Under the pieces are notes generated by a model that ran no database searches, was not told the origin of the DNA, and saw nothing but the letters and a program-made list of their open reading frames with translations. From positions 5,896,585 through 5,960,584 of the forward strand of contig NZ_CP055156.1 in the NCBI RefSeq assembly GCF_014217805.1: DNA of 64,000 nt. Direction: 5' to 3'. The position numbers and the translations under genes were made by a program. The stretch's first letter is position 1, and every line of letters begins with the position of its first letter. The DNA comes from Adhaeribacter swui (lineage in GTDB: Bacteria; Bacteroidota; Bacteroidia; Cytophagales; Hymenobacteraceae). Shown piece by piece: positions 5,895-24,581 of the stretch.

Positions 5895-8800
5895 TTAAAC
5901 TTTTACGCGTTTTCCCGCCGCAAATGCCGAGGGCAACTCGTTAAACTCTTGTTTAAAGTACTTAGTAAAATATTTCGGATTGTTAAATCCTACTTCATAG
6001 GCTACTTCGGCTACGGTAAGCTGGCTTTGGCTTAAAAGCTGCGCGGCTCGTTTTAAACGTACCGTCCGGATAAATTCCAGGGGCGTTTTGCCCGTAATGG
6101 CCGTTAGTTTTTTATACAGGTAAACCCGGCTCATGCCTAGTTCGCGGCTAAGCTCTTCTACCGAAAAATCGGGGTTGGCAATATTCTTTTCGGTAAAGGC
6201 CACGGCTTTTTGAATCAGTTTTTCGTCGAGCGGCGTAATGGCAATATCCTGAGGTTTTACTTCTAATTTATGCTCTAAAGCCGTACGAAAAGCCGCTTGT
6301 TGCCCCATTAAATTCTTTATCCGGGAAAGTAAAATTTCAAAATTAAATGGCTTGGTTATGTAGTCGCTGGCACCGGTTTCGTAGCCAAGCAGGCGTTGTT
6401 CTTCGGTAGCGTTGGCCGTTAAAAGTATAACCGGAATATGGGCTGTGCGGGAATCTTTTTTTAATTTCCGGCTTAAAGCCATGCCATCCATTTCGGGCAT
6501 TATTACATCACTCACAATTAAATCCGGGAGCAGCGAAACAGCCTGGTTCCAGCCTTGTTTGCCGTTTGTTGCTTCTTCTACCCGGTAAAAAACCCGCAAA
6601 TTATCTTTTAGGTAAAACCGGAAATCTTCGTTATCCTCTACAAGTAGTACCACCGGTTTTTTCCGGTTATTTTCATTTTTAAAAGTTGTTTGATTTGCTG
6701 ATGCCAGGGCGCTTAAAACCCGAACCTCGCTGGCGGCCGGGCTAATTTCGGGTAAAATTACTTCTTCCTGTACTACTGGCAACATAATGGTAAAACAGGT
6801 TCCCTGGCCGGGCAAGCTTTGCATGGTAATCTGGCCGTGGTGCAGTTTCACGAATTCTTTGGTAATGGCCAAACCAATGCCACTGCCCTGATTAATGATA
6901 GAACCCGGTAAATCGCTTTGAAAAAAGCGCTGAAATACTTTTTCCTGATCTTCTGCCGGAATTCCAATACCGGTATCTTTTACCTGTATAACCAGATTTT
7001 TGCGTTCTACATCGGTAGTAAAATCGGCTACCGTTACTTCTATCGAAACTTTGCCGCCTTCAGGGGTAAACTTAAAGGCATTAGAAAGCAAGTTAAACAG
7101 TATTTTCTCTAGTTTATCCTGGTCCAGATGGGTTTGCAGGTGCGCTACCGTAGCCTGAAAAGTGAGTTGAATATTCTTATTTTCTGAAATGTCCGAGAAA
7201 GAATAAACAATATCGCGGATAAAAGGAATAACATCTACCGGCGTAGGATGTAAGGCAATTTCCTGAACTTCCATTTTCCGGAAATCGAGCAATTGATTAA
7301 CTAAATTTAACAACCGGCGGGCATTGCGGTAAATAAGTTGTAATTGTTTGTTTGGCTCGCCCGGGCTACTATTTTCTTTTAGTAATTTTTCTAAAGGTGA
7401 TAAAATTAAAGTAAGCGGCGTGCGAAACTCGTGGCTGATATTGGTAAAAAACCGAATTTTAAGCATATCCAGTTCATGGCGGCGCTGGCCTTCTAAGCGC
7501 TCCTGGGCTAATTTGTACTTCAGCCTTTCTTGTCCCAGTACTATTTGCCGGGCCAGCCACAAAGCCAATATTATCAGCAATATATATATCCCCAGTGCCA
7601 GGTTGGTTTTCCAGAACGGGGGCAGAATCGTAATTTTTAAAGCCGCGCCTTTGGGGTTCCAGAGGCCATCGTTGTTCGTAGCTTTAACCCGGAAAGTATA
7701 GGTACCAGGATCCAGGTTGGTAAAAGTAACCCGGTGCAATTTATTATCTACGGTTAACCATTGCTCATTAAAACCTTCTAGTTGGTAAGCATATTGATTT
7801 TTTTCGGGTTGCAAAAAGTTTAAAGCCGCAAAACCAATGGTAAACATATTCTCGTGATGATGCAAGGTTATTTCGGGCAGTTGGTTTATGGCCTTGGTTA
7901 AAAGTACCCGGTCATGAACTGTAGCGCCGGGCTTTACTGGTTGATTAAACAACTGAAAACTGGTTAAAACCACGGCCGGTGCTTGTTTGTTTACTCCCAG
8001 CTTACCCGGATGAAATAGGTTAAAACCGTTACTACCACCAAAAAGTAAATCGCCGGACCTGGTTTTCAGAAAAGCGTTGTCGTTAAAAGCTTTGTCCTGC
8101 AAGCCATCCGAAACATCGTAATTTTTAAATTGGAGGGTGTAGCCTGCGTTGGTTGTTGCTTTACAGACTTTTACGTTAGAGATACCGTTCTGCGTGGAAA
8201 GCCACATGGTTTGCTGATCGTCTTCTACTATACCCTGGATGGCATTATCGGGCAATCCGTTTTCCTGGCGGAAACTGTAAATCTTATTTTTAAGCGGGTC
8301 CAGAATATTTAATCCTTCGTTCGTGCCAATCCAGATTAAGCCGCGGCTATCTTCTTTAACCGTAACAACATTGTTGCTGCTTAAGCCCTGGGGGTTGTTG
8401 TTATTATTTACGTAGTGAGTAAACTTGCCCGTTCGATGGTCTTTTTTATCTACTCCGTAAGCGGTGCCCACCCATAAATTGCCAACTTTATCTTCGGTAA
8501 TAGAAAAAATATAATCCGAATGGATTGAACCCGGCGCGTTAGCCCGGCAATGTTGAAATTTCCCGGTTTGCCGGTCCAGTAAGTCCAGGCCGCCGCCCAA
8601 AGTACCTACCCACAAATTATTCTTAGAATCTTCGTAGATTTCCCAAACCCGGTCGTCGGCTAAGCTATGCGGGTCATCGGCCTGATGCTGGTAATGGGTG
8701 AAAGTTTTACCATCAAACTTATTTAAACCGCCGTAATAAGTACCCAACCACAAGTTTTGCTGCTTATCCAGGTGCATGCCTACAATTACGTTATTGCTTA

Positions 8801-10049
8801 AACTATTTTTATCGTGCGGGTTATGCGTAAACTGCGTAAAACGGTTGGTGGCCCGGTTAAAATAAAGCAAGCCGGCCCCGTTGGTGCCAATGTAAATATT
8901 GCCTTGAGCATCTTCTACAAACCGGTTCACATCGTTGTAAGGTAAACTGGCCGGGTTTGCTGCCTGATACCGGTAAACCGGAAACTTATTGCTGTTGGGA
9001 TGATAGTAACTAATGCCGGCCTTGTAAGTACCAATCCAGATAATATTGGCCTTGTCGCGGTACAAAGCATAAATGCTATTCTGGCTGATACTTTGTTCTT
9101 CGTCCAGGTTTTGCAGCAGGTACTCAATTGTATTTTTTTTCTTGTCAATCACGTTTACGCCACCATGATCAGTACCAATCCAGATTTTGCCATTTTGCTC
9201 CTGCACAATGCTGCGCACCAGGTCATTATTTAAAGGTAGGCTTTGCGATTGCCGATGGTAACGGCTAAATTTTAAATTTTTAGAATTTAAGTAAATAACT
9301 CCCAGGGGTACTTCTTCCTGGTAAATCCAAATATCGCCCGCATCGTCGGCGAAAAGCTTAAAGTTTTGTTCTGTTCCGGCGGTAGCGGGCCGCACGTAGT
9401 GCGAAGAGTAAAGCAATGCCCAATTGGAGCTACTTCGTTTTTCCAGCATACCATCGCGGTAAATTACCCAGAAATTTCCTTTATTGTCCTGAATTAAATC
9501 GGATAACTGGGAGGAGTGCAATGCCGATTGCGCGTTTGCCTGATTGGTAAAAGTCTGGGTTTGCTTATTTTTAGGATTGTATTGGTACAAGCCTTGCGTA
9601 TTGTGCACAAACCAAAAATTACCCGCCAGATCTTTTACTACTTTCGTAATCGCCGAATCGGGTAGGGCGTATTTTTGCATCCAGCGGCGCAGGTTAGGTT
9701 CAAACGATTCGGTTACGGGATTATAAATACTTAAACCCGCCCTAGTATTTACCCAAATAGTTTGCTCCGGCCCTTCATAAATCGAAAGGATGTAATTATT
9801 AGGCAGGGTTGTTTTATCCCGGCTATCGTGGCGAAATGTCTTAAAAGTAGTTCCATCGTACCGGTTTAAACCGGTCATGGTACCGAACCACAAAAAGCCC
9901 TGGCTGTCTTCTAAAATACAATTAATCTGATTATTGCTTAAACCTTTATCGTTGGCAATCCGGGTAAATTTATACTGGCCGGGTTGCGCCATTATAGGCT
10001 GGAAAGAGATTAAACCAAGTAGAAAAAACAGAAAAAATTTAAAATTCAT
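5895..10049 (-). CDS. Hybrid two-component system regulator (HTCS), 1384 aa
   Basis: A single-chain sensor kinase plus transcription factor that senses a glycan fragment in the periplasm and activates a polysaccharide utilization locus. In order it has a signal peptide (1-21), many Reg_prop repeats (signatures like GFLWFGT, NIWIGT and NLWVGT) forming two propellers to about residue 735, and a Y_Y_Y domain (about 750-805). A transmembrane helix follows at about 815-838. The HisKA motif ISHEFRTPLT has its His near 873, and the ATPase motifs are LLSNAFKFTPEGG and VKDTGIGIPAE. A receiver domain has its phospho-acceptor Asp in LIVSDVIMPEMDG near 1180, and a C-terminal AraC-type DNA-binding domain covers about 1285-1384. 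All key residues are present and the length is usual. It is the last gene of the minus-strand locus, 197 bp after the GH43-like gene, and is the natural regulator of the susCD operon. Confidence 0.95.
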   Translation of the reverse strand: MNFKFFLFFLLGLISFQPIMAQPGQYKFTRIANDKGLSNNQINCILEDSQGFLWFGTMTGLNRYDGTTFKTFRHDSRDKTTLPNNYILSIYEGPEQTIWVNTRAGLSIYNPVTESFEPNLRRWMQKYALPDSAITKVVKDLAGNFWFVHNTQGLYQYNPKNKQTQTFTNQANAQSALHSSQLSDLIQDNKGNFWVIYRDGMLEKRSSSNWALLYSSHYVRPATAGTEQNFKLFADDAGDIWIYQEEVPLGVIYLNSKNLKFSRYHRQSQSLPLNNDLVRSIVQEQNGKIWIGTDHGGVNVIDKKKNTIEYLLQNLDEEQSISQNSIYALYRDKANIIWIGTYKAGISYYHPNSNKFPVYRYQAANPASLPYNDVNRFVEDAQGNIYIGTNGAGLLYFNRATNRFTQFTHNPHDKNSLSNNVIVGMHLDKQQNLWLGTYYGGLNKFDGKTFTHYQHQADDPHSLADDRVWEIYEDSKNNLWVGTLGGGLDLLDRQTGKFQHCRANAPGSIHSDYIFSITEDKVGNLWVGTAYGVDKKDHRTGKFTHYVNNNNNPQGLSSNNVVTVKEDSRGLIWIGTNEGLNILDPLKNKIYSFRQENGLPDNAIQGIVEDDQQTMWLSTQNGISNVKVCKATTNAGYTLQFKNYDVSDGLQDKAFNDNAFLKTRSGDLLFGGSNGFNLFHPGKLGVNKQAPAVVLTSFQLFNQPVKPGATVHDRVLLTKAINQLPEITLHHHENMFTIGFAALNFLQPEKNQYAYQLEGFNEQWLTVDNKLHRVTFTNLDPGTYTFRVKATNNDGLWNPKGAALKITILPPFWKTNLALGIYILLIILALWLARQIVLGQERLKYKLAQERLEGQRRHELDMLKIRFFTNISHEFRTPLTLILSPLEKLLKENSSPGEPNKQLQLIYRNARRLLNLVNQLLDFRKMEVQEIALHPTPVDVIPFIRDIVYSFSDISENKNIQLTFQATVAHLQTHLDQDKLEKILFNLLSNAFKFTPEGGKVSIEVTVADFTTDVERKNLVIQVKDTGIGIPAEDQEKVFQRFFQSDLPGSIINQGSGIGLAITKEFVKLHHGQITMQSLPGQGTCFTIMLPVVQEEVILPEISPAASEVRVLSALASANQTTFKNENNRKKPVVLLVEDNEDFRFYLKDNLRVFYRVEEATNGKQGWNQAVSLLPDLIVSDVIMPEMDGMALSRKLKKDSRTAHIPVILLTANATEEQRLLGYETGASDYITKPFNFEILLSRIKNLMGQQAAFRTALEHKLEVKPQDIAITPLDEKLIQKAVAFTEKNIANPDFSVEELSRELGMSRVYLYKKLTAITGKTPLEFIRTVRLKRAAQLLSQSQLTVAEVAYEVGFNNPKYFTKYFKQEFNELPSAFAAGKRVKV

Positions 10050-10246: not shown

Positions 10247-11209
10247 TTACAGCTTTTTTAAATTTTCGTATTCTTGGCGGGTAACTTTAAAAACTGTTCC
10301 GTGTCGCACGCCCGCCGGAAAAGTAATTTTAGCTGAAACATCCGTCCAGTTTTTTAAATCCGGCGAGGTAACGGCGCCCATTTTGCCTTCAGTATATTTA
10401 TCGAAATACACCATCCAGTTTTTGCCTAATTTTAAAGCAGTAGGTCCTTCGGCCCAGTATTTACCGGTAATGGGTGGTCCGGCGGCACTGTAAGGCCCCG
10501 TCAGGTTTTTGCTCCGGGCAATCCGCAGATTCTTCCGGGGTGGTTCCCGGGTTTCATCTTTCAAAAACATCAGGTATTCGGTACCATTGGGTACAATGGT
10601 GGCATCAATTACGTTAAACCCTGGTTCGTATAACAGTTGGGTCGGACTAAATTTTTTAAAATCGGCGGTAGTGGTATAATACATCCGGTGATTGTACCCG
10701 TTTTCTTCTTTCGATTGGGTTTCCGGGTACAAACCGGTAATGGTAGTGGCCCAGTAGATAATGTATTGCTTTTGCCTGGGATCATAAGTTATTTCGGGAG
10801 CCCAACTGTTGCGGGCGCCTGCTTCGTGCTCCATCACCGGAATATACTGCTGCTCCGACCAATGAATTAAATCCGGAGAATTGGCATACCCAATTCCTTT
10901 GGCGTTCCAACTCACCGTCCAGACCATGTGGAACAAGTTATCCGGCCCTTTAATAATGCAGGGATCACGCAAGAGTTTATCCGGACTAAGCTGGGGTTTT
11001 AGAAAGATACTGTCGTTTTTTAAAGCCGACCAATGCAGGCCGTCGGTGCTGGCAGCAAAATGTAATCCGTCGCCGTTACCTTTAAAATATGCAAACAGCA
11101 AGGCTTCGTTTTTTGCTAGCTCCTGCGCCTGAACCTTAAACAAGACAGTAATAGTAAGAATAAAGCTTATAAAGGGTACAAAGAATATAATTTTTAAAAA
11201 ATTAGTCAT
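10247..11209 (-). CDS. GH43-like five-bladed propeller glycosidase
   Basis: Predicted extracytoplasmic glycoside hydrolase, 320 aa with an N-terminal signal/anchor (1-29, ending VQAQ). The pattern of the GH43/GH32 superfamily is visible. An early Asp lies in LLRDPCIIK (about residue 82), a second Asp in NVIDATIVPNG (about 202), and a Glu in YWAEGPTAL (about 250), placed like the base, pKa modulator and acid of that clan. Other blade motifs are HMVWTVSW, NSWAPEI and YIIYWATT. Known members act on arabinan, arabinoxylan or galactan side chains; the specificity here is not readable. It is the next-to-last gene of the locus, 75 bp after the PAP2-like gene, and would trim oligosaccharides produced by the GH9 enzyme. 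Its first codons (MTNFLK) and the DNA beneath them resemble the start of the PAP2-like gene. Confidence 0.8.
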   Translation of the reverse strand: MTNFLKIIFFVPFISFILTITVLFKVQAQELAKNEALLFAYFKGNGDGLHFAASTDGLHWSALKNDSIFLKPQLSPDKLLRDPCIIKGPDNLFHMVWTVSWNAKGIGYANSPDLIHWSEQQYIPVMEHEAGARNSWAPEITYDPRQKQYIIYWATTITGLYPETQSKEENGYNHRMYYTTTADFKKFSPTQLLYEPGFNVIDATIVPNGTEYLMFLKDETREPPRKNLRIARSKNLTGPYSAAGPPITGKYWAEGPTALKLGKNWMVYFDKYTEGKMGAVTSPDLKNWTDVSAKITFPAGVRHGTVFKVTRQEYENLKKL

Positions 11210-11284
11210 TCTAATAAGTAAGTTAAATTGCGAAAGATAACTTATTTATCAGATTTACCAATTCTACAATTTGGCTAAACGCAA

Positions 11285-12622
11285 CTATTTGGTTTTGGCC
11301 GCGGCTAATGTACCTGGCTTTTTATTTACCTTATTTACTACCCACTCGCCCACCTGTAAACCTTGCAAACGGCCATTATCGATGGCATCGCGAAAGTGAA
11401 TACCGCCATAAAACCGCGAAATACCGGCTTCATCGGCTGCCTGTTGAAAAGACTTAAACTCCCGGGCGGGCAAACCAAACCGCACTTCTACGGTATCGAT
11501 ATATTTAAAATTATCGCCTAAGTAATGCGTTAAAACCACCGCGGCCGCCGACGAAATAGTAGAATGGCCGCTTAAATATTCCGGAAAAGGTGGCGTTTGC
11601 AGAAGGGGTTTCCATTGCGGATCAATGTATTTGCGGATGGCCGTTTCCGGGCGAATGCGATTACTCCGGAATTTCTCGTCCCAGCAAGCTAAAAAACCGT
11701 CCATCAACGAAATAGAAACCAAGGTATTTATTTGCATGGCTTTGGCAAAAGGCACTTGGGCTTGTTGGCAGGCAATACCCGTAATCCCTAGCCAATGCGC
11801 TCCCGGTGATATTTTTTTCATGCCCACCAGCATGTGCCCGTTATCTTGCAACGCAAACGGATTGCAATCCCAGAAAGCCGCAACTTCCCGGTGGTCCTTG
11901 GGCAAGTCAACCCCTTCCTGGTAACATTCCTGCATCAATTTAAAAAACGCCGACGTTTTATCTGTGGAAAAAGCCACTGGAGGCGCGGGTTTAAACTGCA
12001 CGCAGGTATCCAGGGTAAACGAACGAATGGTGTTAAAATAAGGCTCTACCGGAGCAAAATAGCCGGGCGGTGTTGGGTACCAAGTACCATCCTGGTTTGA
12101 GGGCGTATACCGGGGATAATTACTGATGCGGTTGTATTTATCGGCTTTGGCATAGGCCAGCATATTTTTACTGATAGCCTGGGCATAATTTAACGAAGCG
12201 GTAATTACTTCTTCCGAAATGCCTTGCTGGCGACAAGAGTATAGGAATTGCTGTTCGTACTTATCTAACAAAGTGCCCGAAGGTTGCATCTTTTTGGCCG
12301 TTTCCATCATGGCCAATAAAGCGCTTAACTGGTACGAATAACCAGTTACCGCCGGTTTTTCTATTTGGGGGTATTTATTTAATATTCCGTGCATGTTGGG
12401 GCTGGCGCTATCATTTTGCGCCACTACCTCGTAACCGGCCAGACAAGCGTAAGAAAAAAAGCGGGCCGCCAAGGGCGGATTGGTAACATCGTGCACCATA
12501 ATATCCGTCATCTCGGCCAACACTTGGCTAATTTGCTGACTTTTAAACTGCGGTTCCGCTTGTTTCGGGGCGCATCCAAAAAGGAAAGTTAATGCAACAA
12601 GAAATTTTAAAAAATTTGTCAT
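11285..12622 (-). CDS. PAP2/vanadium-dependent haloperoxidase-like lipoprotein
   Basis: Helical-bundle protein of 445 aa with a lipoprotein signal (LTFLFGC, Cys about 17), so probably membrane-anchored outside the cytoplasm. The full oxyanion-binding signature of the PAP2/vanadium haloperoxidase superfamily is present. K-x6-RP occurs in KFRSNRIRPETA (about 317), the SGH motif in PEYLSGHSTIS (about 352), and SR-x5-H in SRFYGGIHFRD (about 403). The family includes acid phosphatases and vanadate-dependent haloperoxidases. The length and two-part helical layout favour the haloperoxidase-like branch, but the sequence alone does not separate the activities. It lies 115 bp after the ASPIC-domain gene on the same strand within the glycan locus. 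The role in glycan use is unknown; oxidation or dephosphorylation of a surface substrate are both possible. Confidence 0.8.
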   Translation of the reverse strand: MTNFLKFLVALTFLFGCAPKQAEPQFKSQQISQVLAEMTDIMVHDVTNPPLAARFFSYACLAGYEVVAQNDSASPNMHGILNKYPQIEKPAVTGYSYQLSALLAMMETAKKMQPSGTLLDKYEQQFLYSCRQQGISEEVITASLNYAQAISKNMLAYAKADKYNRISNYPRYTPSNQDGTWYPTPPGYFAPVEPYFNTIRSFTLDTCVQFKPAPPVAFSTDKTSAFFKLMQECYQEGVDLPKDHREVAAFWDCNPFALQDNGHMLVGMKKISPGAHWLGITGIACQQAQVPFAKAMQINTLVSISLMDGFLACWDEKFRSNRIRPETAIRKYIDPQWKPLLQTPPFPEYLSGHSTISSAAAVVLTHYLGDNFKYIDTVEVRFGLPAREFKSFQQAADEAGISRFYGGIHFRDAIDNGRLQGLQVGEWVVNKVNKKPGTLAAAKTK

Positions 12623-15700: not shown

Positions 15701-16124
15701 TATCCCCGTTCACATCGGCCATGGTCACCCCGGTTTTCCAGGTTTGGGGCCGGCCGGTCACCCCTGCTTGTTCGGTAACATCGTTAAACTGCAGGTTGCC
15801 TTTATTTAGGTACAAGCGGTTGGGTGTCATGTTACCCGTAAAGTAAATATCCTGTAAACCGTCGTTGTTTAGGTCGCCTATTGCTACGCCACCACCGTTG
15901 TAAAAGTACTGGTACATCAGCACATTGCCGTACATACTTTCGGTTAAAGAATTGGTAAAATGTACGTTGGTTTTTTCGGGCGCTAATAACGTAAATAATG
16001 GATTCTGAGGTACCTCCTGCTGGGTATTACGATCGGCTAAACTTTGCTCCTTTTTGGTACAACTACTTAAAAAGCCAACAATGCTTAATAAAACTAAAAA
16101 GGAGCTACGACTACTAAACGGCAT
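12738..16124 (-). CDS. FG-GAP/VCBS-repeat lipoprotein with ASPIC/UnbV domain (CRTAC1-like)
   Basis: Surface-type protein of 1128 aa with a lipoprotein signal (VGFLSSC, Cys about 22). It is built of repeated calcium-binding-like propeller blades with the pattern DLNNDGLQDIYFTGN, DVNGDNLLDIYV and DYDNDGWKDLFVTNG through the first 500 or so residues. An ASPIC/UnbV domain follows (about 545-611, IGAKIWVYAQGKKQYLEQM), then a second set of blades (for example DVNGDGLEDVFVGGSAG and DINHDGAMDLFVGG) to near the C terminus. Such proteins are thought to bind ligands or mediate surface contact; no enzymatic function is established. It lies 145 bp after the GH9 gene, beyond a hairpin, so it may start a separate transcript. 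A pairing with PAP2/haloperoxidase-like genes seems recurrent in Bacteroidota from memory, which should be checked. Confidence 0.88.
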   Translation of the reverse strand: MPFSSRSSFLVLLSIVGFLSSCTKKEQSLADRNTQQEVPQNPLFTLLAPEKTNVHFTNSLTESMYGNVLMYQYFYNGGGVAIGDLNNDGLQDIYFTGNMTPNRLYLNKGNLQFNDVTEQAGVTGRPQTWKTGVTMADVNGDNLLDIYVCYSGNMPPEARINELFINQGPDASGNPRFLEQAREYGLADSSFSTHATFFDYDRDNDLDLFLLNHNPQLFRNLDDITIAEIKKHPEPNMRVKLFQNDKGHFKDISDKAGFVNSAFTYGLGAGVADINQDGWPDIYVSNDYSAPDYLYINNGNGTFTDKLKSGIGHTPIYSMGNDVADLNNDALADIVTLDMLPEDNRRQKLLFAPDNYEHFNLFLRVGFHYQYMRNMLQLNNGDGTFSEVGQLSGISNTDWSWAPLIADYDNDGWKDLFVTNGFLRDFTNMDFIKYRGDFLQQKAGNVSEQDMMALVKSMPASNVVNYVFQNTNGVQFQNKSWAWGLNKPSNSNGAAYADLDNDGDLDLVVNNVNQPAFIYQNHNEKFLKNNYLQLKLQGSGKNTAGIGAKIWVYAQGKKQYLEQMPSRGFQSSVSPVLHVGLGASTKVDSVRVVWQSGKQQVLRQVKVNQVLNLKESDALNRYVPVPEKTSPVFQAVSSPFAFTHQSNNLNDFKRQPLLVNPLSFSGPCLVKADVNGDGLEDVFVGGSAGQASQLYLQQKSGKFILKPNPDFASDKNSEDVDALFVDVNQDNKLDLYVCSGGYNNFTPDDPLLQDRLYLGDGTGNFKKSEQALPVMLTSTSCVRASDINHDGAMDLFVGGRVIPGRYPEAPRSYVLINNGKGQFTDQTGNIAPQLARLGLITDAAWVDLNQDKTPELVVVGEWLPVTVFSNKNGKLTDNTSRFFTKSYRGWWNKLVVGDFNQDQQPDLLIGNLGLNSQCKATEKQPAELVYKDFDDNGSVDPILCLYLQGKSYPYVSRDELLDQISMMRTRFPDYKSYADAGLSDIFTPEELQGANKLKANWLSTSLFLSSPQHTWQPVTLPIEAQFAPVYAISTLDYNHDGQLDVLLAGNQNQARLRFGKADANYGVLLQGLGYGKFAYVPQPQSGLQLRGDVRNIITVNGTMLVGVNQQPIMAYKLNRKTPVITAKK

Positions 16125-16269: not shown

Positions 16270-18063
16270 TTACTTGGTGGCAACAGTACCTATTTGATTC
16301 TGTAAAGCATCGATTGCCGAAGCTAAGTACACAAACGGGGAATTCCAATTAATGGCAATTTCGTTGGAAGCGTAAGAGCAATCGTGGTCAATATACACCT
16401 CATCAGGCGATGTGGCGGTGTAGCCCGCGCATTTATCTTGTTCTTTGGCACGGGCGTTGGTGCCACCAGATAGTAAACCAGGTACAGGTTCCTCCACGCC
16501 ATCCGCTACGGAAAGCCGATGGTGCGGGTGCATGGTAGATTTCTTCCCGAAACCGGTTAAAAACGAATAGCCCACGGCATTGCGGCCCAACAAGTAATCG
16601 AGGTTCCCGAGTGCTCCTTGCAGGTATTTTTTGTCTGAAGTTAATTTATAAGCCTGAATCAGAGCAATCCCTTGGTTAGCCGCTACCGCACTGCTGCCCC
16701 AAATGTAATCTTTTTCGGTTTTACCCATTACTGTACGGTAGGTTCGCTCGGCGGCACCCGCTAATAAATCATCGGCGAACTGCACCAATTGCTTTTGTAT
16801 ACCCGGTACATCTTTTTGCGCTATCGGCGTTAGATTCTTGTTAAACCGGGCAAGCGTATAATAACCGAGCATTTTTACCTGCGGCCACGAAGGTAGGGTA
16901 AGCTGGTCAGCGGTGTTAATTTTAGCGGCAGTGTAGTAAGAGTCTTTTTTGGTAGTTACGTATAATTCGGCACCGGCCCAGGTAAGTTCGTCGTTAAATT
17001 CGCGGTCGCCGTAAGCGCCGGTGGTTACTTTGGGCTCAAACTGCTTGTTCATGGCTTCCTGGTCGTAAACTACGTTCGGGTTCTTTTGGGCCCACTCCCA
17101 GGCTTTTACCGCCGCATTTAAGCAAGAATCCGAAAGACCCGGAAGTTCTCGGTTAAAGTTTTTATAAATCCGGCTGGCCTGGGCCATAACGGCAGCAAAA
17201 TCTAAAGTTGCGGCGGTACCTTTTTGTACTACGTAGCGGGGTTTAACAGCTTTATCCGGCATAATCATCCCATCGAAAGCGGCATTGGTTAATTTATGGT
17301 ATACGCCGCCATCGTTCGGGTCTTGCATAGTCAGCATCCAGCGTAAGTTCCAGAGCACTTCGTCCAGAATATCGGGCACCTGATTGGTGCTTTCGGGAAT
17401 ATTTAATTTTTGGGTTTTAAAGTATGCCGAAAAATCTTCGTAAGCCGAGAGTAAAGTACCCATGGTAATGCCGCTGTTCACAATATATTTATTGTAATCG
17501 CCGGCATCATACCAACCCCGCGGCGAGGCGATTACCGTACCGGCTGGTCGCTGCGTCGAAACCGCCGATGGATGTACCTGAACTTCGTTATCAGTTTTAG
17601 CGTGACCTGCGGGCCGGTGCCATTTACCCGCATATTTTTCGGGCAACTCCGTAGAAACCCGCTGATAATAAAAACCTTTTAAAGAAGCCGCCGCTACCGC
17701 TTTATGTACGTCTTTCTGGATTTGAAAAGAATACGAGGAACCTACTCCCGGAATATCTACTACGTAATTGCCATTGGTTTTAAAAGCGCTAAAATCAGCT
17801 ATTCGGGTAGGCTTTTTAGAAAATTCGCCGGGTTTGCTGGGGGTTAATTTACCGGTATAAACCGTTTTTTTACCATCCGGAGTTTTTACGTAAAAAGTAT
17901 TACTGGTAGGCTCGCCCACCACCACGGCTAGCTTTTCGGCCTGCGGGTAAAAACCAACCTGGTTCAGGCGAATATTTTCCGAAGATTGTTGAGCCTGGAG
18001 GGTAAAGGCAGGCACTAACAAAAGTAAACTCCCCCCAAATTTAAGTTTTTTAAATTTATTCAT
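16270..18063 (-). CDS. Glycoside hydrolase family 9 endoglucanase
   Basis: Secreted inverting beta-1,4-glucanase candidate of 597 aa with a signal peptide (1-24, ending LQAQ). Residues about 28-110 form the CelD-type Ig-like N-terminal domain (IRLNQVGFYPQAEKLAVV). The (alpha/alpha)6 barrel follows. The nucleophilic-water Asp pair is in GWYDAGDYNKYIVNSG (about 185), HPHHR is at about 513 and the catalytic acid Glu is in NEIAINWNSPFVY (about 566). All signature residues are intact and the length is typical. The family acts on cellulose, mixed-linkage glucan, xyloglucan or glucomannan; the domain set does not decide which. It sits after the surface glycan-binding protein on the same strand, with a terminator on each side, so it is probably its own transcript or is read through. 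It is the backbone-cleaving enzyme of this locus. Confidence 0.93.
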   Translation of the reverse strand: MNKFKKLKFGGSLLLLVPAFTLQAQQSSENIRLNQVGFYPQAEKLAVVVGEPTSNTFYVKTPDGKKTVYTGKLTPSKPGEFSKKPTRIADFSAFKTNGNYVVDIPGVGSSYSFQIQKDVHKAVAAASLKGFYYQRVSTELPEKYAGKWHRPAGHAKTDNEVQVHPSAVSTQRPAGTVIASPRGWYDAGDYNKYIVNSGITMGTLLSAYEDFSAYFKTQKLNIPESTNQVPDILDEVLWNLRWMLTMQDPNDGGVYHKLTNAAFDGMIMPDKAVKPRYVVQKGTAATLDFAAVMAQASRIYKNFNRELPGLSDSCLNAAVKAWEWAQKNPNVVYDQEAMNKQFEPKVTTGAYGDREFNDELTWAGAELYVTTKKDSYYTAAKINTADQLTLPSWPQVKMLGYYTLARFNKNLTPIAQKDVPGIQKQLVQFADDLLAGAAERTYRTVMGKTEKDYIWGSSAVAANQGIALIQAYKLTSDKKYLQGALGNLDYLLGRNAVGYSFLTGFGKKSTMHPHHRLSVADGVEEPVPGLLSGGTNARAKEQDKCAGYTATSPDEVYIDHDCSYASNEIAINWNSPFVYLASAIDALQNQIGTVATK

Positions 18064-18216
18064 ATTGAAACAAGGTTCTTCTGTATAAATAATGTATTCC
18101 GGAATATTATACCAAGTGGCTGATCAGGAAGGAAAAACAATATTCTTTAAAATTTTAAATTTTTCAACCGGTTAATTAGCACAAAGTATTCCTATTCAAT
18201 TAATACAAGCTAAAAA

Positions 18217-18252
18217 TAAACTAGCCTTGATTCATGTACCAAGGCTAGTTTA
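18217..18252. terminator. Terminator after the glycan-binding protein gene
   Basis: A perfect 13-bp inverted repeat (18217-18229 with 18240-18252) with a 10-nt loop, about 95 bp beyond the stop codon at 18346. It marks the likely end of the susC-susD-SGBP transcript. Confidence 0.6.
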
Positions 18253-18345
18253 CTATTTAGATAAAAGTAGCTAAACCGCAGCTTCTGTCTTTTACTAGTT
18301 GCACGGCTTGGTTAGCTAAAAATCAAATTTTTAAAAATTAGATTA

Positions 18346-19596
18346 CTACTTAGTAATATTTACAATCCGCATGTTATCAATGGCAATGGTAGCAGGTACA
18401 TCCGCCGAATTGGTATTGATAATTACTGCCCGGTAATTTTTTACGCCTGCTTTATTTCCTTTTAATAAATCGCCGTACTTCGCCAGTTTGGTGCTACCAT
18501 TTACTAAGTCTGCCAAAGGCACAGCCACGGTATACCAACGGCCATCGGTGCTCCGCACGAAATCTTTTAAATCAATGTTCGCGGTAATTTCTTTATCGGT
18601 GGCTTCTTGGGTCATTACCTGCAATTGAATTCCTTCTAATGCTGTATTAGCTACTGCTACTTCCATACGCGCTTCGAAATTGGCAATCGGATCTTCCGGG
18701 TTATAATTGGAAGCCGGATCAGTCGGGAAAATTTGGCCTCCTCCAAAATCCGCCAGGTTAATTACTTTGTCGTTAGACCAGCCATATGCCCCCGGAAGAC
18801 TCATATTCACTAAAGCAAATTTTCCTTCTAAGGGGTTAATGCCCGGTGCCGAGTTTGTGATATTGCTGGCCGGTATGCCCCAGCCAAATGGATTTTTATC
18901 GTCGAAGTTACTTACCATGCCCACACTGTATAACTTGGTCCGGGCGTTCGCTAAAGATTTACCACTTTCGGAGGTAACAATTACATCTCCTTTTGTTGGG
19001 TCAAAACCGGTTGGTACAGTAACCGTTAAAGATAAACCATCTGGTAAAGTTGAAAAATTAGTACCTGATACGCCACCCGGAAAAGTTACTTCTTTTACAA
19101 AATAAAAGTATTTGCCATACAAGGTTAAGGGTTCGCCGGCTTTTACATATTCATTGCTCATGGCTTGAATCTCTGGAACCGGGGGTAGAACGGTAAAGTC
19201 GAAGGTAGCATCTCCTTTGGAATTGCTCACTACTAATTTGTTCGAAACAGTAGCTGCGGTAGCCACAGTTGGCGTTTGCTCCGGAATACGAACCATCAGG
19301 TAATTCTTAGAAGCGTAAGCCGTGTTAAAAGAAGCACTATACCCGTTGAAAGTAATAGACCGGGTATTTTCTAAATTTTGCCCTTTAATAACAATAGTTG
19401 AGCCTAAAGTAGATTGCGTAAAAGTGCTATCGGCTTTGTTGGGATCCATAGAACGGATAGCCTCAATTACCGGTGCCGCTTTTGCCTCGGCTGGCGTGGT
19501 GGGATCATCCTCCTGGCATGAAAACAAGACTCCTGCTACCAGTAACAGCAGCAAGGAACTTAGGCGATTGATGGAAAAAATGGTAAACTTCTTCAT
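18346..19596 (-). CDS. Surface glycan-binding protein with IPT/TIG domains
   Basis: Lipoprotein of 416 aa (LLVAGVLFSC, Cys about 27) in the SusE/SusF position. Two IPT/TIG-like Ig domains are visible. The first (about residues 60-138) has LGSTIVIKGQNLENTRSITFNG; the second (about 140-225) has AGEPLTLYGKYFYFVKEVTFPGG. The C-terminal half (about 228-416) is a beta-sandwich with a carbohydrate-binding-module-like ending (RMEVAVANTALEGIQLQVM, then NYRAVIINTN and AIDNMRIVN). Such proteins capture polysaccharide at the outer surface beside SusCD; there is no catalytic motif. It follows susD by 56 bp with a hairpin in the gap, so its expression may be lower than that of susCD. The assignment rests on position, lipobox and IPT pattern. 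Confidence 0.88.
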   Translation of the reverse strand: MKKFTIFSINRLSSLLLLLVAGVLFSCQEDDPTTPAEAKAAPVIEAIRSMDPNKADSTFTQSTLGSTIVIKGQNLENTRSITFNGYSASFNTAYASKNYLMVRIPEQTPTVATAATVSNKLVVSNSKGDATFDFTVLPPVPEIQAMSNEYVKAGEPLTLYGKYFYFVKEVTFPGGVSGTNFSTLPDGLSLTVTVPTGFDPTKGDVIVTSESGKSLANARTKLYSVGMVSNFDDKNPFGWGIPASNITNSAPGINPLEGKFALVNMSLPGAYGWSNDKVINLADFGGGQIFPTDPASNYNPEDPIANFEARMEVAVANTALEGIQLQVMTQEATDKEITANIDLKDFVRSTDGRWYTVAVPLADLVNGSTKLAKYGDLLKGNKAGVKNYRAVIINTNSADVPATIAIDNMRIVNITK

Positions 19597-19612
19597 ATAT
19601 CATTTATTTTAC

Positions 19613-19641: not shown

Positions 19642-19652
19642 ATTATTAGCTT

Positions 19653-21323
19653 TTATTGAAATTGATAGGGAACAGGTTCTTTCCGTAAGTTAGGAGCCCG
19701 GCTGAGTTCAGCGGCCGGATAAGGCACAAAGAAGCTAGACTCGTTCACCGAATAGAATTGTGGCGTAACTGATTCTATGGTCCAGGAAGTAGCGTTTACT
19801 TTGGCATTTGGCGTAATCCGGTAAGTTCCCCGGTCTTGCTTACTCAGTTTATCTAAAGCCAAAGTAGGGTTATAATAATGCAAGCGAACGATATCGTACC
19901 ACGATTGGCCTTCCATAGCTAACTCTACCCGTCTTTCTCTGTAAATATCTTCCCAGGTAATTTCGGTTTTCGCCGGTACACCTGCTCTTACCCGAACCGC
20001 ATTAAAGGCATTTAAAGCGCCGGCATCGGCGGTAGAAGCATTATTACCCAAAATAGCTTCTGCGTAAATTAACAGAACTTCTGAATAACGCATTAAATAG
20101 GTCTGAATTTCGGTACCCATCTGCACTACTTTACCATCGTTATCTTCCGGACGACCTACTACGTATTTTTTAATATTAGCCCGGGTTTTAAAGGCATCAG
20201 CACCATTGTTATCGGTAGTTACCTGCAATGGGCGTTTAATTTTAGCACCTGGCTTGTTCGGGTCGTTTACTTCTTCAGTAATATAAGAATACACATCGCC
20301 CGGGAACATGTAAGTAGCTTTTCTCCGCTTATCCCCTTCTTCGTACGACTTCAGGATATCCATGGTAGCCCCATGGTCACCGCCCCAACCATCGCCAAAA
20401 CCGGTAATGCTGGAAGAATAAGCCATGTACGCTTGTTGCGTATTTTGCGCTCCCCAGTAAGTGCTGCCACCGTTGTAAACCCACTGCAAAGCGGCTACAG
20501 TTTCTTCGTTGCCGTTGTTTTTGGTTAAATACAAATCTTCGTAGTTAGGCAACATATTAAATGAATTCGCATCTATTACCGACTTAGCATAGTACGCCGC
20601 ACTATCTAAATCAGACTGCCGACGGGTACCGTTTGAGCCAACACCGGCCCGGGTTAAAAACATCCGGGATAACATGGCCTGCGCCGAATATTTGGTAAGC
20701 CGGGATTTTTGCACCGGACTAGCCGGTAATACTTTAGAAGCATACCGGATATCGCGGATAATAAAGTCCCAAACACTTTCTACGGTATTGCGTGCAATTG
20801 AAGTGTCGGTGAGCACTTTGGTATTATCTTCTAATAACGGCACCGGACCAAAAGTTTGCACCAGGTAAGAGTAAGCTAAACCCCGGAAAAAACGGGCTTC
20901 GCCGATGGCGTGCAACTTAATATTTTCCGGTACGGCTGGGTCGGCAAACTTATTTACGTTGTTTATTACGGCATTAGATTGACCCACAATGTTAAAAAAC
21001 GATTGCCAGGCGCCATTTACCGATTCCTGGGTAGGAGAACTGGCCAGACGTACGTGTTCCATCTCGTAAGAAGGAGAAAAGAACGTTCCGCCCCGGCCAT
21101 CACCAATTCCTACGGCGGCCTTATCGTTGTAACCAAACCACACGCCACTGTACAAAGGCGCGGTAGCCATTAAAACCTGATCGGTAGTTTTATAATACTG
21201 TACATCCGTAATTCTATCCAATGGCGGACGGTCCAGAAATTCTTCGCTACAGCCGGTTAGTAAACCCAAAAGCATCAGGCCAACTGTATATTTTTTTAAA
21301 TTTATCTTCAACATTTTGCGCAT
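19653..21323 (-). CDS. SusD/RagB family outer-membrane lipoprotein
   Basis: Glycan-capturing lid of the SusCD importer, 556 aa. The lipobox (GLLTGC) places the acylated Cys near residue 25, followed by the usual EEFLDRPPLDRITDVQYYKT. The SusD-like N-terminal TPR-containing part has ARFFRGLAYSYLVQTFGPVPLL (about 140-160). The C-terminal SusD/RagB part has TYLMRYSEVLLIYAEA, then ALNAFNAVRVRAGVP and WEDIYRERRVELAMEGQSWYDIVR. The length is normal. A Met three codons downstream (MLKINLKKY) is an alternative start. It starts 9 bp after the susC stop codon, so the two are co-transcribed. Confidence 0.96.
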   Translation of the reverse strand: MRKMLKINLKKYTVGLMLLGLLTGCSEEFLDRPPLDRITDVQYYKTTDQVLMATAPLYSGVWFGYNDKAAVGIGDGRGGTFFSPSYEMEHVRLASSPTQESVNGAWQSFFNIVGQSNAVINNVNKFADPAVPENIKLHAIGEARFFRGLAYSYLVQTFGPVPLLEDNTKVLTDTSIARNTVESVWDFIIRDIRYASKVLPASPVQKSRLTKYSAQAMLSRMFLTRAGVGSNGTRRQSDLDSAAYYAKSVIDANSFNMLPNYEDLYLTKNNGNEETVAALQWVYNGGSTYWGAQNTQQAYMAYSSSITGFGDGWGGDHGATMDILKSYEEGDKRRKATYMFPGDVYSYITEEVNDPNKPGAKIKRPLQVTTDNNGADAFKTRANIKKYVVGRPEDNDGKVVQMGTEIQTYLMRYSEVLLIYAEAILGNNASTADAGALNAFNAVRVRAGVPAKTEITWEDIYRERRVELAMEGQSWYDIVRLHYYNPTLALDKLSKQDRGTYRITPNAKVNATSWTIESVTPQFYSVNESSFFVPYPAAELSRAPNLRKEPVPYQFQ

Positions 21324-21332
21324 TTTTAAAAA

Positions 21333-24300
21333 TTAAAAATCAACCCCTACACTAAAAGTGTACATCGGCGTAAGCGGATAACGGCCATAATCTACCCCAA
21401 TAGTTTGAGCACTTACCTGCGCATCACGGCCTACGTAAGCACCTACTTCCGGATCAAATCCTTTGTATTTGGTGAACGTGTATAGGTTCTGGATACCAAA
21501 AGTTAAGCGGGCACCTTGCACAATGCCTTGTTTTTGTAAAAAGGCTTTAGGGATATTATAACCAATCTGCACGTTTTTCAACCGCACATAAGAACCATCT
21601 TCCACGTATTTGCTGGTAATCCGCTGGAAGTTACCGTTAATGTTCGTAGCCGAAATCCGCGGTACATCGTAGCCGGGGTTTAATAATACCGGGTTAGCAG
21701 CATCGCCACCCACGCGGGCGTAGTTATAAGTATCTTTCATCATATTCTGACCCAGGTTGATGTTATTAGGATCGGAATTGTAGAAGCGCACGTAATTGTA
21801 AACATCATTACCGTAAGACCCGGTTAACAATACTGTTAAATCAAAACCTTTGTAGTTAAAAGTATTGGTCATACCAAAAGTGGTTTTGGGCCAAGGATTA
21901 CCAATAAAGGTTTGGTCTCTTTCGTCAATTACACCATTACCATCAATGTCGCGGTATTTAGTATCACCCACGGATACTCCCGGAGTGGTAACGGTCCCAT
22001 TTGCGTCTCTTACTTCAATAGGTAATTCTACACCATTTACGGTAGGCAAAGCGCTGGCTTCAATTTCTTCTCTGGTTTGGAAAATACCATCTTCGATGTA
22101 ACCATAGAATTGCCAAGGCGCCTGACCCGCTACTGCCCGTTGCGTAAAGTAATCCATAAACCAAGCCTGACGCTCTACAATGGCCGATGCCGAATAGAAC
22201 TCGGTTACTTTAGGGCGGAAGCCGGAAACGTTAATGTTGGTATTCCAGCTAAAGCCGCCTTTATTTATGTTTACCGAGTTTAAGCTTATAGCGTAGCCTT
22301 TATTTTCGAGAGAGCCGATGTTAACGGTTGGTTTACCAATACTGCCGTTTCCGGTAGCACCTAAATAATCCGGTAAAGGCAATGTCATTAACAAGTTGTC
22401 GGTTTTCTTGATGTAGAAATCACCTTCCAGTTGAATGCGATTCTGCAATAAGGCAATATTAAAGCCGATGTTGTTGGTTTTAGTTTCTTCCCACTGCAAA
22501 CCAGGGTTGCCGTATTGGCCTACCACAAAGCCCGATCCCCAGGTAGTTGGAATAGTAGTCATTGGCGAATAAATACCGCCGGTACCTTGGTTACCGGTTA
22601 AACCAGTTTCAAAACGAAGTTTAAAGTCGTTAATAATCGGCAGTGATTTCATGAAAGGTTCTTGGGAAATATTCCAGGCGGCAGAAACTGAGGGGAATAC
22701 GCCCCAACGGTTATCCGGACCAAAGTTAGAAGAACCGTCCGTGCGGATAGCACCTTGCAATACGTATTTCTCGTTAAAAGTATAAATCACCCGACCTAAG
22801 TAAGACTCCAAAGACCAGTCGCTTAAGTTACTGTTGTTGGTTTGGCCTTGCGTATTACCCGCTCTTAACACCGGAAAATCGTTAGATAAAAAGCCTTGTC
22901 TTTGACCCGACATATCTTCGTATCTACCAGACTGCGATTCGTGGCTGGCCATTGCATTAATAGCGTGCTTACCAATAGTAGTGTTGTATTGTAATAACTG
23001 GTTCCAGTTCCAGTAAGTATTAGTAGAGTTGCCGGCATTTAAAGTAGCCGTTGGGTTGTTACGGCCACCAATCTGGTAAGACGGCACAAAATAATTAGAT
23101 CTGCCAAAAGTAGCATTACCACTTACGGAAGTCCGGAAAGTTAATCCTTTAAAGATATTAACGTCGGCATTTAAACCTCCAATTACCCCTCTTCTGATTA
23201 AATCGTTCTGTACAATGTTAGCCATGGCAATCGGGTTTAAAGGCGTATATTGTACGGCAGCTCCGTTGGTTTCGTCAGCCCCGCCCCAAGTACCATTGGG
23301 ATTTACCACAGCAATACCCGGCGACATTTGCAAAGCAGTTAAGATAACATTTTCCTGAGTGGAAGACAGGTTTTCGTTGGTTTGGTTTACCGATAAGTTG
23401 GTAGATAATTTAAGCCATTTACGCGCCTGATTATCTACGTTTAAACGGAAAGAATAACGTTTGAAATCCGAACCAATCGCAATACCATCCTGATTAAAAT
23501 ACTCGCCGGAAACATAAACCTGGGTCTTTTCGCCACCGCCAGATAAACTTAATTGGTGCTTTTGCAAAGGGGCTCTTTTAAACAAAGCTTCCTGCCAGTT
23601 AGTACCAGGGCCCAAAATAGAAGGATCCTGAAAATCAAGGTTAGGAGTTGCCCCGGTTAATACCCGCATTTCGTTGGTCATTTGGGCGTATTCCTGCAAG
23701 CTCATTACTTCTACCTGTTTCGGTTTATCCTGCAAAGAGTAGGTATAACCGTAGTTAATCTTCATGTCGCCGGATTTACCTCTTTTGGTAGTAATTAAAA
23801 CTACCCCGTTGGTACCCCGGGAGCCATAAAGCGCCGTAGCCGAAGGCCCTTGCAAAATTTCCATGTTTTCAATATCAGCGGGGTTTAAGCCAGCTAATGG
23901 GTTAGAAGAACTGGTAGAGCCAAAACCAACGTTTCCGGGTTGAATCTGCACCCCATCTACTACGTAAAGCGGTTCGTTGGTACCATTAATGGAGTTAATA
24001 CCCCGGATATTTACCGAAACACCGCCACCTGGCTGACCAGTATTCTGGGTTACATAAACCCCGGCAGCCCGACCTTGAATGGCTTGTTCAATGGTAGTGT
24101 TTACAGTTTTTTGAATTGCTTCGGCACCGATGGTGGTTTGAGCACTGGTTAAATCACTGCGTTTAATTTCGCCGTAACCGGTAATTACTACCTCGTTTAA
24201 TGCTTTAGCATCTTCTTTTAAAGATATATTGATTTGCGTTTTGCTACCAACGGTAACCTCTTGGCTTACATAGCCAATATAAGAAATTACTAATACATCG

Positions 24301-24581
24301 GTGTTAGCGGCCTCCAAGGTAAAGTTACCATTTACGTCAGAAGCTACTCCATTGGAAGTACCTTTAATTAAGATACTTACACCGGGCAAACCTTGATTAT
24401 CGGTAGTCGAGATAACTTTACCGCTAACGGAGTGGCGCGTAGGCGCAGTCTGGGCAAAGCTGCTAAGAACGGGCATACTAATAAAAGCTATTAGAAACGC
24501 CAGTATCTGCCCTGCTTTGGTAAAGCTACCTTTTAGATTACTCATGAGGTAATCCTGGTACTGGTACTTGTTTTTCATCAT
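21333..24581 (-). CDS. SusC/RagA family TonB-linked outer-membrane transporter
   Basis: TonB-dependent importer for oligosaccharides, 1082 aa. The N-terminal signal (to about residue 44, ending SSFAQ) is preceded by a rather long positively charged stretch; Met13 (MSNLKGS) could be the real start. Then come a carboxypeptidase-D-like regulatory domain (about 50-130, SVSGKVISTTDNQGLPGVS) and the plug with SusC signatures (NEPLYVVDGVQI, then IENMEILQGPSATALYG and GTNGVVLITTKRGK). The 22-strand barrel runs to the terminal Phe (FSVGVDF). No anti-sigma-interacting (STN) domain is present, which agrees with regulation by an HTCS rather than by ECF sigma/anti-sigma. It is the first gene of the operon, preceded by 860 bp without genes. 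Confidence 0.96.
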   Translation of the reverse strand: MMKNKYQYQDYLMSNLKGSFTKAGQILAFLIAFISMPVLSSFAQTAPTRHSVSGKVISTTDNQGLPGVSILIKGTSNGVASDVNGNFTLEAANTDVLVISYIGYVSQEVTVGSKTQINISLKEDAKALNEVVITGYGEIKRSDLTSAQTTIGAEAIQKTVNTTIEQAIQGRAAGVYVTQNTGQPGGGVSVNIRGINSINGTNEPLYVVDGVQIQPGNVGFGSTSSSNPLAGLNPADIENMEILQGPSATALYGSRGTNGVVLITTKRGKSGDMKINYGYTYSLQDKPKQVEVMSLQEYAQMTNEMRVLTGATPNLDFQDPSILGPGTNWQEALFKRAPLQKHQLSLSGGGEKTQVYVSGEYFNQDGIAIGSDFKRYSFRLNVDNQARKWLKLSTNLSVNQTNENLSSTQENVILTALQMSPGIAVVNPNGTWGGADETNGAAVQYTPLNPIAMANIVQNDLIRRGVIGGLNADVNIFKGLTFRTSVSGNATFGRSNYFVPSYQIGGRNNPTATLNAGNSTNTYWNWNQLLQYNTTIGKHAINAMASHESQSGRYEDMSGQRQGFLSNDFPVLRAGNTQGQTNNSNLSDWSLESYLGRVIYTFNEKYVLQGAIRTDGSSNFGPDNRWGVFPSVSAAWNISQEPFMKSLPIINDFKLRFETGLTGNQGTGGIYSPMTTIPTTWGSGFVVGQYGNPGLQWEETKTNNIGFNIALLQNRIQLEGDFYIKKTDNLLMTLPLPDYLGATGNGSIGKPTVNIGSLENKGYAISLNSVNINKGGFSWNTNINVSGFRPKVTEFYSASAIVERQAWFMDYFTQRAVAGQAPWQFYGYIEDGIFQTREEIEASALPTVNGVELPIEVRDANGTVTTPGVSVGDTKYRDIDGNGVIDERDQTFIGNPWPKTTFGMTNTFNYKGFDLTVLLTGSYGNDVYNYVRFYNSDPNNINLGQNMMKDTYNYARVGGDAANPVLLNPGYDVPRISATNINGNFQRITSKYVEDGSYVRLKNVQIGYNIPKAFLQKQGIVQGARLTFGIQNLYTFTKYKGFDPEVGAYVGRDAQVSAQTIGVDYGRYPLTPMYTFSVGVDF

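Follow-up and report, generated by a model that had tools for sequence, protein, structure and literature searches.

A haloperoxidase gene paired with an ASPIC gene recurs beside SusCD in Bacteroidota: a candidate oxidation module in a GH9-containing polysaccharide utilization locus of Adhaeribacter swui

Why should a locus devoted to polysaccharide utilization carry, in its middle, two genes that are not standard carbohydrate enzymes? The question is raised by positions 5895-24581 of a 64,000-nucleotide stretch of the Adhaeribacter swui genome (contig NZ_CP055156.1, positions 5,896,585 to 5,960,584; hereafter the window), in which genes encoding an ASPIC/FG-GAP protein (ASPIC) and a vanadium-dependent haloperoxidase (VHPO) stand between a glycoside hydrolase family 9 (GH9) gene and a GH43-like gene of a SusCD cluster. 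The reading that we favour, with a probability of about one half, is that the locus serves the use of a beta-glucan or hemicellulose of the plant cell wall, xyloglucan-like or associated with cellulose, under the control of a hybrid two-component system (HTCS) regulator, and that the pair it holds is a module of two lipoproteins which carries out a peroxide- and halide-dependent oxidation for SusCD systems; its halide, substrate and benefit are inferred.

A preliminary description of this DNA had labelled the second of the two proteins PAP2/haloperoxidase-like, a label that could be confirmed and made more specific: the protein belongs to the family of the vanadium haloperoxidase PDB 4cit/4usz, which we take to be the Zobellia galactanivorans vanadium iodoperoxidase of the 2014 iodoperoxidase paper. 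The protein matches 4cit_A over residues 4-433 (phmmer, E=1.7e-115), and 4cit/4usz is its only PDB sequence match at E<=0.01. Residues K317, R324, S351, G352, H353, R403 and H409, presumably the vanadate ligand positions, are aligned with identical residues in 4cit. All seven are retained in 116/117 ASPIC-linked VHPOs (the exception being L117_6), and W314 and F346 in 117/117; as the seven-residue site is also found in 20/26 homologues without an ASPIC link, it is a feature of the wider family rather than of the linkage. Judged from its sequence, the window protein is a vanadium haloperoxidase family member with an intact vanadate site. A single-sequence structure prediction of this protein (mean pLDDT, i.e. 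predicted local distance difference test, 37.1) was not used. In the VHPO tree, 4cit is nested within a mostly ASPIC-linked group; most ASPIC-linked enzymes fall with 4cit in one large group and the low scorers outside it, with exceptions, and the linked and unlinked labels change 14 times on the tree against a shuffled mean of 25.2.

Two functions had been offered for the pair, an oxidative step and the removal of phosphate. The first is favoured by the place of the enzyme in the 4cit clade and by its complete vanadate site. The second would have the PAP2-fold protein strip phosphate from a substrate imported by SusCD, in the manner of the low-phosphate PusCD clusters with phosphatases known in Flavobacterium (PMC8115612, consulted in part). 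The PF01569 domain agrees with such a role, this match identifying the PAP2 fold at superfamily level only. We nevertheless regard a phosphatase as improbable because the sole and best PDB match is a haloperoxidase, similar over its full length and nested in the ASPIC-linked group, and because the recognised neighbours are mostly glycosidases; PAP2, haloperoxidase and ASPIC are moreover all absent from the main text of PMC8115612 (supplements excluded). The same closest solved structure speaks against an identity as a PAP2 acid phosphatase. Phosphate removal is thus disfavoured, yet kept in play because the same kind of pocket can bind phosphate.

The distribution of the pair was assessed by scanning genome contigs with five VHPOs of the own genome as queries, which gave 80 named loci, i.e. 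the best 80 of at least 585 confirmed matches, leaning towards close relatives. They span Cytophagales, Sphingobacteriales, Chitinophagales, Saprospiraceae and Flavobacteriaceae, according to record titles and our placement of the genera. An ASPIC gene lies directly upstream of the VHPO gene, on the same strand, in 79/80 of them, the remaining one starting at a contig end. Where a complete ASPIC gene lies no more than 400 bp away (102 pairs), the intervening gap has a median of 0 bp. When the named loci with at least 8 kb of upstream flank are considered, ASPIC is present in 70/70, and on the same strand within 9 kb SusC is found in 58/70 and SusD in 57/70. With a VHPO gene counted as linked when an ASPIC gene lies on the same strand within 1.5 kb, 84/87 VHPO genes of the named loci are linked, the three others being a gene at a contig edge and, in two cases, the second copy of a tandem pair. 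Recurrent linkage of the two genes with susCD in other genomes was the check proposed beforehand, and it was found. Six loci (L072, L073, L074, L076, L077 and L085) carry ASPIC followed by two tandem VHPO genes, the first and second copies of which fall in different parts of the tree.

The pairing was also surveyed in other samples. In a class-wide sample of 80 genomes, 12 (own included) have a VHPO match, and 4/17 matches outside the own genome are linked to ASPIC. Linkage is confined there to the high-scoring VHPO subfamily: 4/6 matches above 380 bits on the VHPO model are linked, the other two having a more distant ASPIC gene (same strand in L112, opposite strand in L116), versus 0/11 fetched stretches of low scorers with any ASPIC gene. 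Within the own family, 11/13 VHPO genes in the fetched stretches are linked; the misses are a contig-end gene and L175, where ASPIC lies three genes upstream. A SusC gene is found within 8 kb of VHPO in 62/87 cases for the named loci, 2/6 for the own genome, 1/17 for the class sample and 0/13 for the own family, where the SusC model and short flanks miss more distant genes. As for the own genome, 4/5 long VHPO copies are within 5 kb of an ASPIC gene on any strand, and 7/8 ASPIC clusters have a PF07980 SusD gene no farther than 10 kb away (0/200,000 random placements reached 7), the eighth having SusC and a SusD-like_2 gene downstream. The own genome also holds two irregular ASPIC copies (L015 and L021; G000:C3:61720-63126 and 4685458-4688606), one divergent, of 748 aa, and one split into two adjacent frames of 811 and 368 aa.

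Pairwise distances were then compared over 50 full cassettes. The correlation between VHPO and ASPIC (r=0.947) equals in strength that between SusC and SusD (0.948), versus 0.751-0.820 for the cross pairs; a set thinned to 39 loci gives 0.930, 0.943 and 0.760-0.818, respectively. In 1000 subsamples of 60%, VHPO-ASPIC always exceeded VHPO-SusC (smallest difference 0.023) and ASPIC-SusC (0.015). Lipobox-like motifs were found in 95/143 VHPOs (linked and unlinked), 68/102 ASPIC proteins, 39/55 SusD and 5/54 SusC proteins, with shuffled rates of 0.09-0.15. As they are about as common in VHPO and ASPIC as in SusD, the pair would consist of two outer-membrane lipoproteins beside SusCD. These sequence comparisons indicate near-obligate pairing and co-evolution of ASPIC and VHPO in the sampled subfamily, together with recurrent SusCD linkage, and the idea that the two genes belong functionally to the SusCD system is thereby supported, by linkage across Bacteroidota and by co-evolution at the strength seen for SusC and SusD.

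The partner of the enzyme was examined with an AlphaFold2 model (mean pLDDT 90.8), for which 46 ASPIC proteins, from every second (66) of 131 complete ones, were aligned with the window protein. It predicts a CRTAC1-like propeller plus ASPIC domain at residues about 40-615 and a second propeller at about 629-1122. The protein has an FG-GAP propeller followed by an ASPIC domain (PF13517, PF07593), and it matches CRTAC1 both in sequence (9e-17) and in predicted fold (9etn; Z=36.5, 463 aligned residues, root-mean-square deviation 2.6). The second propeller resembles many WD and EPTP propellers and aldos-2-ulose dehydratase (Z=26.8; Foldseek/VIA), which was taken as generic propeller similarity, and an enzymatic role for it is a lead only. 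Surface adhesion, which had also been put forward for the pair, is retained as possible for the ASPIC protein on account of its CRTAC1-like and second propellers, either as adhesion or as binding.

The locus itself comprises eight open reading frames, all open, on the minus strand and at the coordinates given beforehand, together with one transcription signal. In order of transcription they are:

21333..24581, minus strand: SusC/RagA TonB-dependent outer-membrane transporter, 1082 aa (TIGR04056, 857 bits; PF13715, PF07715)
19653..21323, minus strand: SusD-family surface lipoprotein, 556 aa (PF07980, 2.6e-34; PF14322)
18346..19596, minus strand: SGBP-B-like surface glycan-binding protein (SGBP), 416 aa (PF18329 xyloglucan-binding domain, E=9e-25; TIG)
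18215..18254, minus strand: terminator-like hairpin with T-rich tail in the SGBP-GH9 gap, a possible attenuator (17-pair stem; z=-4.35)
16270..18063, minus strand: GH9 endoglucanase-type enzyme with CelD_N Ig domain, 597 aa (PF00759, 5.5e-87; PF02927)
12738..16124, minus strand: ASPIC/FG-GAP lipoprotein, predicted double beta-propeller, 1128 aa (PF13517, PF07593; AlphaFold2; 9etn match)
11285..12622, minus strand: VHPO (4cit family) lipoprotein, 445 aa (phmmer 4cit_A, 1.7e-115; PF01569, 7.1e-8)
10247..11209, minus strand: GH43-like enzyme with BT_3657-like N-terminal domain, 320 aa (PF22847, 6.8e-8)
5895..10049, minus strand: HTCS regulator, 1384 aa (Reg_prop, Y_Y_Y, HisKA, HATPase_c, Response_reg, HTH_18)

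The intergenic gaps, in the same order, are 9, 56, 282, 145, 115, 75 and 197 bp, so that susC and susD are adjacent (TIGR04056, PF07980), and GH9, the GH43-like gene, the SGBP_B_XBD protein and the HTCS regulator belong to the same cluster according to Pfam. The standard set announced in the preliminary description (SusC, SusD, glycan-binding protein, GH9, GH43-like enzyme and HTCS) is therefore borne out by Pfam and NCBIfam matches in eight intact co-directional genes, and its two odd members are indeed adjacent co-directional lipoproteins, with the lipobox-like N-termini LFGC and LSSC. The GH43-like protein scores 102 bits against NF052546 (cut-off 500) and has no clear PDB sequence match (best E 0.05). 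Its PF18329 domain makes the SGBP a candidate xyloglucan binder. The xyloglucan side-chain set consists of alpha-xylosidase (GH31) and beta-galactosidase (GH2/35); none of these enzymes is found among the eight genes of the locus, the rest of the genome not having been searched for them. About 12 kb from the locus, the window (36842-38179) encodes a glucuronyl-esterase-like protein (PF22244, E=9e-36), a family that cuts lignin-carbohydrate esters.

The hairpin runs from 18254 to 18215 in the longest gap of the locus. A different strong hairpin (z=-5.41) occupies the SGBP-GH9 gap of G493 (L161); in G503 (L157) the aligned stem is altered, self-complementary by eye, and lay outside the piece folded computationally. 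The hairpin is possibly an attenuator between SusC-SusD-SGBP and GH9-ASPIC-VHPO-GH43, and given its position the two groups may differ in transcription level. The Bacteroidota-type promoter pattern, used in its commonly known form, gave 4 matches in the window versus 3.6 expected, none of them upstream of susC, and no promoter is claimed for this reason; sigma-70-like sites are at chance level (40 found versus 37.3 expected).

Comparison with relatives bears on whether the two genes are mere passengers dropped into the locus. Among genomes of the same genus, all eight genes recur in unchanged order in G503, and G483 and G488 retain GH9-ASPIC-VHPO-GH43-like-HTCS, preceded by two extra genes (a TIG protein and a GH26-CBM35 protein in G483, genes of the same size in G488). 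This genus, g1, is probably Adhaeribacter, as an Adhaeribacter metagenome-assembled genome nests among its members in the VHPO tree. ASPIC-VHPO-GH9 recurs in genus g68, probably Pontibacter: it is accompanied in G595 by a GH74 xyloglucanase-family protein of 801 aa (6p2m, 2.4e-224, as the best match; 2cn2, a beta-1,4-xyloglucan hydrolase, 1e-174), and in Pontibacter diazotrophicus (L025) by GH26 and a BNR/sortilin-type protein sized like the GH74 protein. The passenger explanation can point to two same-genus genomes that keep the locus without the pair in its middle. It has to contend with a place conserved in three other genomes of the genus, with the ASPIC-VHPO-GH9 adjacency in another genus, with the 79/80 pairing, and with G493, in which the SusC gene of the locus has a partial ASPIC gene upstream of it, divergently oriented at the contig start, and the VHPO gene lies at the end of another contig. 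It was rejected because of linkage and co-evolution, and we consider it very improbable. On the evidence of gene order, the linkage of the pair to plant-wall glycoside hydrolases recurs in relatives. Co-occurrence points the same way: of 150 family genomes, 27 have a VHPO orthologue (>700 bits), 32 a GH9 orthologue (>850 bits) and 26 both (Fisher p=2.5e-22, a statistic that ignores shared ancestry and uses thresholds chosen after the scores were seen); when no bit score is required, hand counting gives 44, 41 and 31. In 12 of the genomes with both orthologues the two are at most about 10 kb apart. In L166 (2100-4247), a pyrroloquinoline quinone-dependent dehydrogenase with a cytochrome domain, a second redox enzyme, is encoded directly upstream of ASPIC-VHPO-GH9.

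A specific tie of the pair to glucan use, as had been suggested, did not hold. A lean SusC-SusD-ASPIC-VHPO unit is common among the loci, and the next co-directional gene encodes a glycoside hydrolase for at least 9 of the 84 linked VHPOs of the named loci. The gene following these 84 is on the other strand in 35, a core gene in 6, a contig end in 2 and another co-directional gene in 41; families among the latter include GH9 (2), GH35 (2), GH2 (2), alpha-L-fucosidase (1), GH43 (1) and 3-keto-disaccharide hydrolase (3), with GH97 in L079, and as this tally rests on 25 of 51 matched families the glycosidase counts are lower bounds. Elsewhere the pair is found near GH35, GH2, GH43, GH30 and GH5. 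The three 3-keto-disaccharide hydrolases lie directly downstream of VHPO in L080, L083 and L084 (about 11271-12162), that of L080 having been individually tested; this position hints at oxidised sugars as substrates.

The neighbourhood of the crystallised enzyme was considered in the family of L075 (Aestuariivivens), where at least 174 of 397 genomes match the 4cit sequence at E<=1e-80. In a sample of 20 of these positive genomes, hand-picked with a preference for long contigs, 15/20 are linked to ASPIC. The best match, a gene of G085 that is 98% identical to 4cit, is arranged ASPIC-ASPIC-ASPIC-VHPO, with a divergent sodium:solute symporter beyond the cluster. In L145, a SusD gene precedes symporter-ASPIC-ASPIC-VHPO. 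As separate observations, VHPO is found in L145, L137/L176 and other Flavobacteriaceae together with two or three ASPIC genes and a sodium:solute symporter (PF00474 in the two that were tested), and a gene of about 300 aa, with a GyrI-like domain in one tested case (L137), lies downstream of the Flavobacteriaceae VHPO.

A further alternative is halogen acquisition, according to which SusCD-ASPIC-VHPO would bind, oxidise and import iodine or a halogenated organic compound, its placement in glycan loci being secondary. In line with it are the lean units of four genes, some of them preceded by FecR or close to an extracytoplasmic function (ECF) sigma gene, and the carriage of the enzyme by at least 174/397 genomes of the Aestuariivivens family, many of them presumably marine. 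Many carriers nevertheless belong to soil or freshwater genera (Mucilaginibacter, Dyadobacter, Adhaeribacter), and the pair has repeatedly been joined to plant-glycan hydrolases, so that we hold this explanation to be unlikely.

Several observations weigh against an oxidation module serving SusCD and plant-wall hydrolases. Many VHPO copies stand in lean units, the gene after a linked VHPO is on the other strand in the 35/84 cases given above, and only 3/6 VHPO genes of the own genome are linked to ASPIC in the sense defined above (same strand, 1.5 kb). Of the 20 Flavobacteriaceae stretches, one has a co-directional SusC gene at up to 8 kb and none has SusD at up to 6 kb, the stretches ending about 9 kb away and being filled by extra ASPIC genes; the G085 cluster likewise has no adjacent SusCD, none being recognised within the further 14 kb looked at. 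With ASPIC present and SusCD rare in these stretches, the pairing with ASPIC extends beyond the SusCD link demonstrated here. As regards the locus, SusD and SGBP by GH9-ASPIC-VHPO in G483 and G488 are only 26-40% identical to those of the window, which suggests that the pair is tied more closely to GH9 than to one particular SusCD. In G493 and G498, both close relatives, the pair is missing from SusC-SusD-SGBP-GH9-GH43 and placed elsewhere or divergently, while two extra genes (of GT87 and GH5 type in G493) are present in the locus; the locus thus does not need the pair inside. The terminator-like hairpin separates SGBP from GH9, and no H2O2-producing enzyme was recognised in the locus. Finally, the co-occurrence of VHPO and GH9 over the 150 family genomes takes no account of shared ancestry; among the 26 genomes with both orthologues, the pair and GH9 are unlinked in 10/10 of genus g70, and VHPO and GH9 are also not seen together in 4 others.

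In the mechanism that we propose, a plant-wall locus would have taken in a portable two-gene module, i.e. an ASPIC double-propeller lipoprotein followed by a VHPO lipoprotein, both of which would be located at the outer membrane, beside SusCD. The propeller protein may dock VHPO and/or hold its substrate. The VHPO would use H2O2 and iodide or bromide to form hypohalous species; these would oxidise wall material, phenolic or otherwise decorated, that is held at the cell surface, and/or peroxide arising at feeding time would be consumed, so that SusCD and the glycosidases could work. Between these two benefits, conditioning of the substrate is ranked slightly ahead of peroxide removal.

Peroxide removal could also be the whole function. 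VHPO would then mainly remove the H2O2 released by the attacked plant or alga, turning halides over, and the SusCD link would reflect co-regulation with feeding. VHPOs use H2O2 (PMC11871015, consulted in part), and in the part consulted of a study of Zobellia on fresh algae, vIPO3, a vanadium iodoperoxidase, is upregulated with Ascophyllum and detoxification of reactive oxygen species is discussed (PMC9296495). The many lean units without adjacent glycosidases fit as well. Such a defence leaves unexplained the near-fixed propeller partner, the distance correlation at SusC/SusD level and SusCD as the usual neighbour (58/70 named loci). We know of no VHPO that acts as an efficient bulk peroxide scavenger, and we hold defence as the whole function to be doubtful.

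The oxidation module, if real, would add a halide-dependent oxidation step to polysaccharide utilization loci, which are described mainly via hydrolases, lyases and binding proteins; it would give ASPIC/UnbV proteins a testable partner and tie halogen chemistry to plant and algal biomass turnover. To our knowledge, the physiological role of bacterial vanadium haloperoxidases is open. The present survey places the VHPO family that includes 4cit in a near-obligate pair with ASPIC, often by SusCD, across several Bacteroidota orders. A bolder and tentative extension, which we find less probable than not, is that of a halogenating module widespread with SusCD in Bacteroidota, where ASPIC and VHPO would form one surface complex oxidising or halogenating glycan-bound (phenolic or lignin-carbohydrate) material before uptake, the Zobellia iodoperoxidase then being a member and not a free-standing halogen enzyme. 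The parts belong to known families. No description of the recurrent ASPIC-VHPO-SusCD link was found in the parts covered of the open-licence full texts, subscription papers being outside this scope, and PMC12188728 names haloperoxidase in its reference list only.

The rest of the window holds trehalose genes at 26055-30585, i.e. a GH15 protein with a trehalase-like N-terminus beside a fused GT20-trehalose phosphatase. A bacterial alpha-2-macroglobulin of 1808 aa (46841-52267) is encoded about 10 kb from a bifunctional penicillin-binding protein of BiPBP_C type (34053-36416), a pairing that occurs in other bacteria.

Among known systems, the locus resembles the HTCS-controlled xyloglucan/beta-glucan SusCD loci, with which it shares SusC, SusD, an SGBP-B with a xyloglucan-binding domain, GH9, a GH43-like enzyme and HTCS, and from which it differs by the ASPIC-VHPO pair in its middle. 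It also differs from a full xyloglucan set (GH31, GH2, GH74 and others) in that those enzymes are absent from it, GH74 and GH26 being found in relatives. PusCD of Flavobacterium is likewise a SusCD pair with a non-CAZy enzyme; it has phosphomono- and diesterases (PMC8115612, as far as consulted), whereas the window locus has VHPO and glycosidases. The ASPIC protein resembles CRTAC1/ASPIC-UnbV propeller proteins in sequence (9e-17) and in the predicted fold of residues about 39-615 (Z=36.5), and differs as a bacterial lipoprotein with a second whole propeller and VHPO as its fixed genetic partner. As for the presumed Zobellia galactanivorans iodoperoxidase (4cit, 4usz), it shares with the window VHPO homology over the full length (1.7e-115) and the same vanadate-site residues, and its counterpart in G085, with 98% identity, is part of a cluster of the form ASPIC-ASPIC-ASPIC-VHPO, whereas the VHPO gene of the window lies inside a GH9/HTCS plant-type polysaccharide locus of Adhaeribacter.

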